Source of the DNA: Ignavibacteria bacterium CG1_02_37_35
GTDB lineage: Bacteria; Bacteroidota; Ignavibacteria; Ignavibacteriales; Ignavibacteriaceae
Length of the DNA stretch: 34,740 bases
Assembly (NCBI GenBank): GCA_001871325.1
Contig: MNVA01000228.1
Span: 1-34,740 of the forward strand
Direction: 5' to 3'
A program made the translations under genes and the position numbers. The notes beneath the pieces were generated by a model, which worked only from the letters and a program-made list of their open reading frames with translations, was not told where the DNA came from and made no database searches. Shown piece by piece: positions 12,989-15,521 of the stretch; the stretch's first letter is position 1; every line of letters starts with the position of its first letter.

Positions 12989-13636
12989 TTGGTTATTCTT
13001 AAAATTGTTTCAAAGAATGAAAAGAACGTTGTTGTAACTTTAGAAGACGGCAGCGTTCTTTTTCTCTCTACCGAGTTGGTCTATCAAACCGGACTTCGGA
13101 AAGGAGACGACATCTCTGAGGAATTGAGAATACAGCTCATCGAAGAAAATCAAAAGTATTTCATCAAACAAAAAAGTTTTGATTACCTTTCCAGAAGGCT
13201 TCATTCCACACAAGAATTAAAAACAAAACTGATGCAGAAAAAATACGATAAGAGATTAATTCAGATCGTATTGGATGAACTGGAAGAAAAAAAATATTTA
13301 AACGATGCTGATTTTGCCGAGAAGTTTATTACCGAACGGATATATTTTAAGAAAAGCGGTTCTCAAAAAATTAAATCAGAATTGCTGAAAAAGGGAATTC
13401 CTTTAAGTCTGATAGAAGAGAAGCTGCACATGGTAGTTGATGAAAATGAGTCTTATGAGAATGCTTTAAGTATCGGGAAAAAGAAAATGGCTTCACTAAT
13501 TAAAAGAGGATTTGACGATAAAAGAACCCGGTTAAAACTCTTCGCTTATCTTGTATCCAAAGGATATGATTTTGATACGACAAAGCAAGTTTGTAATGCA
13601 TTATTTAAAGCAGATCAATTTGATGATGTGGAATAG
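12989..13636 (+). CDS. recX: Regulatory protein RecX
   Basis: This 215-residue RecX-family protein, a modulator of RecA filament activity, follows recA by 3 nt. The family's three-helix repeats are visible: YLSRRLHSTQELKTKLMQKK, then LEEKKYLNDADFAEKFITER, then GSQKIKSELLKKGI and the final YLVSKGYDFDTTKQVC. The first 60 residues form a beta-rich N-terminal extension seen in Bacteroidota-type RecX. The start is a TTG at 12989; no ATG lies near, and the GGGA in the end of recA is about 12 nt before it, so the exact start is less certain than the identity. Confidence 0.9.
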   Translation: MVILKIVSKNEKNVVVTLEDGSVLFLSTELVYQTGLRKGDDISEELRIQLIEENQKYFIKQKSFDYLSRRLHSTQELKTKLMQKKYDKRLIQIVLDELEEKKYLNDADFAEKFITERIYFKKSGSQKIKSELLKKGIPLSLIEEKLHMVVDENESYENALSIGKKKMASLIKRGFDDKRTRLKLFAYLVSKGYDFDTTKQVCNALFKADQFDDVE

Positions 13637-13728
13637 ATACAAATAAAAAATTTTTGACAAGGTGGGCTGGTTATGATTATTCCTTCCATATTTCCGATTT
13701 GCTCTCTATCATCAAATAGATACAATAA

Positions 13729-13795
13729 ATTCGTGAACATTCGTGTCATTAGTGGCGGGAAATGGTTGCCGCTAATCTCACGAATAAACACTAAT
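13729..13795 (+). repeat. Left hairpin repeat flanking the GxxExxY gene
   Basis: Two 28 nt arms (13729-13756 and 13768-13795) pair imperfectly, with 22 of 28 positions including one G-T, around an 11 nt loop. The first arm starts ATTCGTGAACATTCGTG. A second copy in the same orientation lies at 14183-14250, with 26 of 28 positions identical in each arm. The hairpin ends 13 nt before the GxxExxY start codon, leaving only room for the ribosome binding site. Confidence 0.85.
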
Positions 13796-13808
13796 AAAAG
13801 GAAATATT

Positions 13809-14183
13809 ATGAGTGATTTAGTTTATAAAGATGAATCATACCAAATAATCGGAATTTGTATGGATGTACATAATATTCTCGGCGGCGGTTTTTTGGAAAT
13901 TGTTTATAAGGATGCAATTGAATTTGAAATGCGGCAGAAATCTATTATTTATGAGCGTGAAAAAGAGTATGATATTATTTATAAGAATATTTTGCTGCCG
14001 CATAAGTTTTTTTCTGATTTTACGGTATTCGATAAAATTATTCTTGAGGTTAAAGCAGTTGACGGCATTGCGGATGAATTTATCAAACGAACAATTAATT
14101 ATCTTGCCGTATCAAAATGTAAATTAGGATTGATCGTTAATTTTGGACGGGACAAATTAAGTTATAAAAGAATTGTACTATAA
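13809..14183 (+). CDS. GxxExxY family protein (PDDEXK-like nuclease fold expected)
   Basis: This is a 124-residue protein with the family-defining GFLEIVY at residues 27-33. Asp70, Glu80 and Lys82 (in FFSDFTV and IILEVKAV) are placed like the D-(E/Q)xK metal-binding triad of PDDEXK nucleases, and Glu30 could be the helix-borne acidic residue. No DNA-binding extension is visible. The family is widespread, patchy and functionally undefined; nuclease activity is an inference from fold assignment. Start: ATG 13809 with AAAGGA 8 nt upstream. Its tight position between two direct copies of a palindromic repeat, with the downstream copy beginning on the last base of the TAA, suggests that gene and repeats move or are maintained as one 522 bp module. 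Confidence 0.88.
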   Translation: MSDLVYKDESYQIIGICMDVHNILGGGFLEIVYKDAIEFEMRQKSIIYEREKEYDIIYKNILLPHKFFSDFTVFDKIILEVKAVDGIADEFIKRTINYLAVSKCKLGLIVNFGRDKLSYKRIVL

Positions 14184-14250
14184 TTCGTGAACATTCGTGT
14201 TATTCGTGGCAGGAAGAATTTTGCCACTAATCTCACGAATGAACACTAAT
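14183..14250 (+). repeat. Right hairpin repeat flanking the GxxExxY gene
   Basis: Arms 14183-14210 and 14223-14250 pair at 22 of 28 positions around a 12 nt loop. It is a direct copy of the 13729-13795 element. Differences between copies include two that keep or improve pairing (C-A becomes C-G; T-G becomes T-A), which hints at selection for the folded form. Its first base is the last base of the GxxExxY stop codon. Confidence 0.85.
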
Positions 14251-14338
14251 AGAAAAGATAATTTTTTACATAATCGGTTTTAAGACAAAACAACTTATAA
14301 GTAAAGATGAATCCGAAAAATAAACGACAGGTTTTATT

Positions 14339-14929
14339 ATGGGCTTAACAATTCACTATAGCGGTCGGTTCAACGAACATGCATCTCTTTCAGAAATGAT
14401 CGAAGAAGTTAAAGACATTGTAGAAATATATAATTGGAAGTATCATATTTTTGAAAAACACTTCTGTATTGATGATTTGTGCAAGTCAAATTATAACGAC
14501 AAGATCTACGGCATTTGTTTTACACCACCTGAATGTGAAACGATTAATTTATGTTTTTTATCGAATGGAAGAATGAGCAGCGCCCCAAACTTAGAATTCT
14601 TTGGTAATTCACCAGATGAAGATTATCAAAAATATTTATACATGCTTTCGGTAAAAACACAATTTGCCGGAAGTGCTACTCATAAACTTATCATTCACTT
14701 GCTAAAATATCTGAACAAGAAATATTTCTCCGAATTTAAAGTTATCGATGAAGGTAACTACTGGGATACCGAAGATGAAAAAATACTGGGAGAAACTTTC
14801 AAAAAATATACTGATTTGCTGGATTCATTTGGAGCGGCATTAGAAAATATTCCTCTAAAATCTGAGGAAACTTTTGAAGAGTATTTTAAGAGAATTATGA
14901 GAATAATTCAAGACAAACGGAAAAAGTAA
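14339..14929 (+). CDS. Hypothetical protein, accessory pocket, start MGLTIHYSG
   Basis: This 196-residue soluble acidic protein is not assigned to a known function. The N-terminal MGLTIHYSGRF recalls uncharacterised proteins scattered through Bacteroidota and relatives. No signal peptide, membrane segment or nucleotide-binding motif is visible. Three cysteines (about residues 43, 48 and 57, in HFCIDDLCK and GICF) and a further CETINLC lie in the first half, so metal binding is conceivable but unsupported. The C-terminal 60 residues look like charged helices. It is separated from the right hairpin by 88 nt and from the next gene by 89 nt, and appears to be an independently transcribed accessory gene. 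Confidence 0.65.
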   Translation: MGLTIHYSGRFNEHASLSEMIEEVKDIVEIYNWKYHIFEKHFCIDDLCKSNYNDKIYGICFTPPECETINLCFLSNGRMSSAPNLEFFGNSPDEDYQKYLYMLSVKTQFAGSATHKLIIHLLKYLNKKYFSEFKVIDEGNYWDTEDEKILGETFKKYTDLLDSFGAALENIPLKSEETFEEYFKRIMRIIQDKRKK

Positions 14930-15018: not shown

Positions 15019-15405
15019 ATGGATGAAAAATATCTTGACGTCTTACAGAATATTGAATTTGGAATAGTAAGCGTATATCAAAAACAAAATGATCTTAAAG
15101 ACTATGAAGTAATGAATGCATTGGATGCATTGATTGATAATTATCGTTTTGAAATACGTGGTTATACTCCTAAAGAATATCCTCTTACGGATAAAGAAAT
15201 TCTTGTATTTAAAGAGGTACGAGAAATGTGTGAATTCAGATTGGGGCGTAAAAACTTAGATGAGACGGGTCTTGCCATTTTAGAACAAAAGACAACAGAA
15301 GAAATTCTCTCATGCTTAAGAAAAATTAGGAAGTCAGTTGAAAGATGGAACTCTCGGGGTGGAAAGCAAGGATACTTAAACTTTGTAAAAGAATATGTGA
15401 GCTAA
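15019..15405 (+). CDS. Hypothetical protein, small helical family ending WNSRGGKQGYLNFV
   Basis: This 128-residue, largely helical soluble protein starts MDEKYLDVLQNIEFGIVSVY. It has a conserved-looking C-terminal segment, LRKIRKSVERWNSRGGKQGY followed by LNFVKEYV. Similar small proteins with that ending occur in diverse environmental bacteria without known function, by recollection rather than a search. Its sole upstream signal is AGG in AATAGGTAAACC just before the ATG. It closes the accessory pocket between recX and birA; the likely terminator at 15435-15462 follows within 60 nt. Confidence 0.65.
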   Translation: MDEKYLDVLQNIEFGIVSVYQKQNDLKDYEVMNALDALIDNYRFEIRGYTPKEYPLTDKEILVFKEVREMCEFRLGRKNLDETGLAILEQKTTEEILSCLRKIRKSVERWNSRGGKQGYLNFVKEYVS

Positions 15406-15434
15406 AGAGTACGGAATTAAACTGCTCTAATAAT

Positions 15435-15462
15435 AAAACCCCGATTACTCGGGCAAAGTTTT
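15435..15462. terminator. Possible bidirectional terminator between the small gene and birA
   Basis: AAAAC plus CCCGA, loop TTAC, TCGGG, a CAAA bulge, then GTTTT. The core stem is only 5 bp, with an outer A/T stem, and lies between convergent genes. It is a modest candidate. Confidence 0.4.
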
Positions 15463-15521
15463 ATGCATCCTTCCCCTTCAGATAAACTGGATTGACTTAA
15501 AACAGTTTCATTAGCACATTC

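Follow-up and report, generated by a model that had tools for sequence, protein, structure and literature searches.

The window analysed here is the whole stretch of 34,740 nt taken from a contig of Ignavibacteria bacterium CG1_02_37_35 (MNVA01000228.1). Within it, a small gene of the GxxExxY family lies between two direct copies of an imperfect palindrome, with recA and recX upstream and, downstream, two small genes and birA on the opposite strand. The features of the locus are as follows.

12989..13636, + strand: recX, the left neighbour of the insertion, outside the unit.
13729..13795, + strand: left hairpin, 67 nt (match to model R1 at 13725-13800), with three heptamers in tandem per arm, reading ATTCGTG, ATTCGTG, ATTAGTG in one arm and CGCTAAT, CACGAAT, CACTAAT in the opposite arm.
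13809..14183, + strand: GxxExxY gene, 124 aa, predicted Cas4/RecB-like PD-(D/E)XK fold, with D70, E80, K82, E30 and Y98 conserved.
14183..14250, + strand: right hairpin, 68 nt, a direct copy of the left (match to model R1 at 14179-14255).
14251..14283, + strand: stretch after the right hairpin, a possible outer end of the unit, its approximate limit drawn from alignment and reading.

The small genes downstream (14339-14929 and 15019-15405) match nothing in Pfam, NCBIfam or PADLOC. The second belongs to a stretch that is 81% identical in G017, a genome of the same family and a different genus, where this stretch directly follows a GxxExxY unit; the first gene is missing there between the two. 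A repeat of 74 nt at 15429-15502 has two stems of terminator-like form and is also present in G001 (twice on C22), on another contig of the window's own genome (G000:C124) and in G017 (C13), several copies lying close to the same islands. As a candidate attC site it was rejected, and it reads instead as a shared bidirectional terminator-like repeat.

Each arm of both hairpins consists of three head-to-tail heptamers on the plan [AC]TNNG[CT]G, here ATTCGTG, and the two copies fold with energies of -26.0 and -27.6 kcal/mol (z of -5.8 and -6.0; none of 200 shuffles was as good in either case). The geometry described in the initial annotation was confirmed to the base: two hairpins (67 and 68 nt) that point the same way, 26 of 28 identical positions per arm, 13 nt from the first hairpin to the ATG, and a second hairpin that overlaps the stop codon TAA by one base, its final A. 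Its suggestion that differences between the copies preserve pairing is only weakly true, as both sides have changed in just one of 21 pairs among ten copies; stronger evidence for pairing comes from comparing hairpin types, between which both arms change in concert. Many copies in the genome had also been expected, but the search counted three full ones in all, the third right after an ORF6N gene on contig C124. In G017 the right hairpins are followed by sequence similar to the stretch at 14251..14283, and so, judged by eye, is the hairpin of this ORF6N gene. The unit was unmatched in searches of plasmid DNA and phage proteins.

A strong sense-strand fold, a close fit to both start and stop codon and a location inside operons are all features that might be expected of RNA or transcription signals belonging to the GxxExxY gene, such as an attenuator, processing or stability element with no role in mobility. 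We nevertheless consider this explanation very unlikely: the heptamer hairpins lack a terminator-like T run, the window hairpin has no Rfam match above the gathering score, hairpins of this kind also stand alone or with other genes, and the full, remnant and empty alleles found at fixed junctions (see below) would be left unexplained.

The only gene inside the unit encodes the GxxExxY protein (TIGR04256, 123.4 bits against a cut-off of 35; PF13366 PDDEXK_3, 108.5 bits against a cut-off of 22), and a transposase of known type is not encoded. The PDDEXK-like residues picked out in the initial annotation are well conserved, with E30, D70 and E80 invariant and K82 present in 31 of 32 relatives; Y98 is also invariant, and the Q of the QxxxY motif occurs in 15 of the 32 aligned sequences. 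Searching the PDB by sequence returned no relative of the protein. An AlphaFold model based on 32 aligned sequences has a mean pLDDT of 92, and its top structural match in the PDB is the Cas4 protein SSO0001 (4ic1; Foldseek E 7e-5, and Z 10.0 across 98 residues); further nucleases of the PD-(D/E)XK type rank below it. By its modelled fold and D...ExK residues, the GxxExxY protein belongs to the PD-(D/E)XK nuclease superfamily and is a predicted nuclease. Cas4 proteins become nearly inactive once residues of the RecB motif are mutated (PMC4176176). Selection on the GxxExxY protein is purifying, with a dN of 0.022 versus a dS of 0.31 between the window copy and that of G017. The family name occurs in just two papers of the open literature that we searched; one mention, made in passing, comes from a reverse-transcriptase pipeline, which reported a GxxExxY domain in the place of an expected cas4 gene (PMC8934634).

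The unit occurs at unrelated places and has recently been shared between distant genomes. Four hairpin copies lie within 1.4 kb in G017, where they bracket a GxxExxY gene with 96% protein and 93.3% DNA identity to that of the window; a second GxxExxY copy between hairpins carries an internal deletion. This array adjoins HipA_2-like and DUF3037-like genes rather than recX, and in the window's genome C124 carries relatives of both genes, upstream of the hairpin-tailed ORF6N gene. The RecX proteins of the two genomes share only 47% identity, against which background a GxxExxY protein that is 96% identical shows the unit to have been shared horizontally. In G001, the sole other genome of the same genus that was compared, no unit follows recX, although the contig ends about 700 nt further on and does not provide a clean aligned empty site. 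Both observations contradict vertical fixation of the module at this locus, the outcome that the initial annotation had set against mobility.

The association between gene and repeat was assessed at loci fetched regardless of repeats, 51 by protein from named genomes and 30 by family model from the class, with a gene counted as bracketed when direct repeats scoring at least 18 lay across it within 300 nt. Of the usable loci, bracketing was detected at 9 of 45 in the first set and 6 of 29 in the second, compared with none of 326 and none of 44 control windows taken from the same loci, and at 2 of 17 loci newly fetched in a scan of the phylum. Its frequency over the samples thus ranges from 12 to 21% of loci, versus 0/370 for the controls; a strict heptamer detector catches only part of the bracketed genes. 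The majority of GxxExxY genes, which occur in 249 of 391 sampled genomes of the class and 182 of 395 of the phylum, have no detectable bracket, and decay or a second, repeat-free lifestyle must therefore be common.

Although the repeat sequence varies from gene to gene, inspection reveals the common plan of tandem [AC]TNNG[CT]G heptamers inverted across a loop, in the variants ATTCGTG, ATCTGTG, CTTTGTG, CTCTGTG, CTTTGCG/CTCTGCG and ATCTGCG. Cognate hairpins of several sequence types flank GxxExxY genes elsewhere, repeatedly, as had been anticipated. The four copies of the CTTTGTG type are too dissimilar in layout to be aligned for a further covariance model. Hairpin type follows the lineage of the GxxExxY protein: on a tree of 83 such proteins, the heptamer types, assigned by eye, cluster with 9 changes versus 15.0 after shuffling, and none of 200 shuffles gave a value as low. 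These observations bear on the proposal that the hairpins are ordinary repeats beside an ordinary gene, arising by chance or local duplication and gained or lost only through homologous recombination. Recombination between direct repeats can by itself yield single-hairpin remnants, and the three copies in the window's genome fit such a view, but bracketing with differing heptamers in many lineages versus 0/370 control windows, together with clean hairpin-free empty sites within the same genera, makes it scarcely credible.

The reverse search, from hairpin to gene, relied on a covariance model built from ten hairpins; in a scan of 391 genomes of the window's class, it found matches in 44. Among 20 fetched match regions, located by the hairpin model alone, 8 have a GxxExxY gene abutting at least one hairpin. 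Hairpins lie on both sides of the gene at L144, L150, L155 and L156 (the last with a frameshifted gene), and tandem hairpins flank it on both sides at L158; a spacing of 451-458 nt between hairpins, equal to gene length plus hairpin, is recurrent. Other fetched regions contain single hairpins between ordinary genes, bearing out the expectation that some copies would lack the gene. GxxExxY genes are present in 42 of the 44 genomes with a hairpin match versus 207 of the 347 others (p 4e-7), and in 31 of 33 after removal of the 11 genomes in which hairpin and gene abut (p 4e-5), p-values that overstate independence because the genomes are related. Two genomes have a hairpin match and no GxxExxY gene.

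Several of the regions have features of their own. Tandem arrays of heptamer hairpins spaced by about 75-150 nt lie beside GxxExxY genes at L158:1940-3239, L189 and L160:2049-2517, and on both sides of the gene in L158 and L189. Two loci from different families (L147, G365:C73; L148, G112:C299) have an identical hairpin sequence and the same neighbouring proteins, which reflects either recent transfer or contamination of one assembly. In genus g13, a single hairpin without cargo stands right before the start of the same gene at two loci (L143, G393:C42; L151, G013:C56), and has been kept at an orthologous site; the gene (product MxQLLGAHTSTSGGVSKSVDL...) presumably encodes a relative of endonuclease IV.

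Cargo other than GxxExxY also occurs at the hairpins. A pair of hairpins surrounds a methylase gene and a fragment of an MjaI-type restriction gene at L146, in a unit placed between two genes for subunits of the proton-translocating NADH dehydrogenase type, and another pair surrounds an ASCH gene at L157. The L146 hairpins (L146:2163-4304, G181:C17) are near-identical, direct and of the window's type, and a GxxExxY unit with a window-type hairpin lies elsewhere in this genome (L144). In two ORF6N genes (L027:2642-3262, G000:C124; L044:3598-4211, G001:C22) the stop codon overlaps a window-type hairpin, with none in front. The commonest cargo seen, by far, is GxxExxY.

Varied cargo of this sort, along with the many GxxExxY genes that are not bracketed, would be accommodated if the hairpins were mobile or recombinogenic through some other enzyme of the host or of an element, with GxxExxY as one cargo among several, retained for some different function, for instance in defence or the processing of DNA. 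We regard this as a serious, though less likely, alternative. It does not readily account for the predominance of GxxExxY as cargo, for a heptamer type that tracks its lineage, or for a hairpin whose presence is predictive of the gene even in genomes without an abutting pair (31 of 33). Moreover, Y1 transposase loci from the same genomes are without these hairpins: 30 such loci of the RAYT/IS200 type, from ten genomes, have other repeats and no heptamer hairpin, which argues against RAYTs as owners of the hairpins, and mobilisation by them in trans finds no support in their location. The window's genome is unusually rich in S23 genes (TIGR02436; 16 loci over the cut-off), which encode four-helix bundles; they too were set aside, the hairpin model matching none of the 16 loci.

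Two operon junctions, each compared over 30 loci or genomes, hold units in different states. At the AtuA/AtuA-ferredoxin junction of family f2, the intergenic gap is at most 13 nt in 23 of the 30 loci; three hold a repeat-GxxExxY-repeat insert within 532-548 nt, three hold just 65-72 nt with CGCAAAG-like heptamers, and one has 71 nt in an ambiguous state. Full (G055), remnant (G052) and empty (G045) alleles occur together in genus g37. The junction between a histidine kinase and a LytTR regulator, which involves the window's own family and heptamer type, has three full inserts, one decayed insert, two hairpin remnants (by eye) and one unrelated insert, the gap being at most 34 nt in 18 loci and 63-81 nt without a hairpin in five; full and empty states are found side by side in genera g13, g2 and g26. 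The inserted gene runs in the direction of the operon, and the first repeat begins on or close to the stop codon of the gene upstream. Those occupied copies that were placed on the protein tree group as close relatives within each junction, so that recurrent gain is inseparable from recurrent loss or replacement of alleles. The empty sites sought at recX were thus found at these two other junctions, as filled and empty sites of kindred units in relatives whose diverged junctions blur exact ends and target duplication, while at recX itself the unit is absent in G001.

Horizontal sharing, the full, remnant and empty alleles and the bracketing of genes elsewhere together provide good support for the proposal of a mobile nuclease-repeat module, and we are confident that the hairpin-bracketed unit is mobile. 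As to what acts on the hairpins, the best reading, we infer, is the GxxExxY nuclease itself, with odds modestly in its favour. We therefore interpret 13729 to about 14283 as a copy of a minimal mobile element whose GxxExxY protein probably cuts its own hairpin, and assign this reading a probability of roughly 0.58. According to this model, the element would comprise one small gene for a RecB/Cas4-like PD-(D/E)XK nuclease between two direct tandem-heptamer hairpins. The protein would recognise the heptamers of its own hairpin, probably in extruded or single-stranded form, and cut there. The resulting breaks may lead to insertion into gaps between genes, or to removal of the intervening gene, with a hairpin remnant left behind, and other cargo between cognate hairpins may move in trans. 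Since a PD-(D/E)XK nuclease alone cannot rejoin DNA, host repair would be needed.

A broader possibility, which we put forward tentatively, is that the GxxExxY family supplies the enzymes for minimal elements of a widespread class. In each, a lone Cas4/RecB-like nuclease would recognise its own heptamer hairpins and move itself, along with other genes flanked by such hairpins, through a cut-and-repair mechanism distinct from HUH, tyrosine, serine and DDE transposition, and the diverging hairpins and proteins may represent many parallel specificity classes. If GxxExxY does mark a family of mobile elements, a single explanation would cover thousands of genes labelled "hypothetical" as well as the interspersed hairpins adjacent to them; the varied cargo, restriction-modification included, would point to an overlooked way of shuffling genes; and, should the protein prove to be the mobilising enzyme, the kind of element itself would be new. 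The existence of cognate protein-hairpin pairs with differing heptamers makes the mechanism directly testable.

In the literature searched, we found no description of a mobile element of the hairpin-GxxExxY-hairpin type, but the unit can be compared with several known systems. Like integron cassettes, it has an imperfect palindrome right after a stop codon and varied cargo at the same hairpin; unlike them, it has hairpins on both sides and occurs as dispersed single units rather than arrays, and the attC cores RYYYAAC/GTTRRRY were not seen in the window hairpin (by eye). With IS200/IS605 elements it shares a small single-gene unit, hairpin ends and no obvious long target duplication, as far as the diverged junctions allow this to be read, but it lacks a Y1 transposase and has a longer heptamer hairpin in direct copies at both ends. 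The likeness to Cas4/RecB-like PD-(D/E)XK proteins lies in the predicted fold (SSO0001) and the catalytic D, E, K and Y residues. At 124 aa, with only two cysteines (C17 and C105), the GxxExxY protein is without the four-cysteine Fe-S site of Cas4, and a link to CRISPR genes was not seen here. There is a further parallel with REP/RAYT systems (REPtrons; TnpA-REP, Y1 HUH), in which a nuclease-type gene is likewise bracketed by imperfect palindromes, with extra copies elsewhere, and the repeat type is specific to the protein subclass (PMC3733652, PMC6006769). REP palindromes measure 20-40 bp and are tagged by GTAG/CGTC (PMC3733652), whereas the hairpins here are 67-115 nt long, with tandem-heptamer arms, no GTAG/CGTC foot and a low copy number, and the gene is PD-(D/E)XK, not HUH. 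The initial annotation's idea of a REP/RAYT-like layout built on another nuclease family is thus supported: the unit behaves as a REPtron would with another enzyme in it, yet fails as one on its gene, its hairpin foot and its genomic association.
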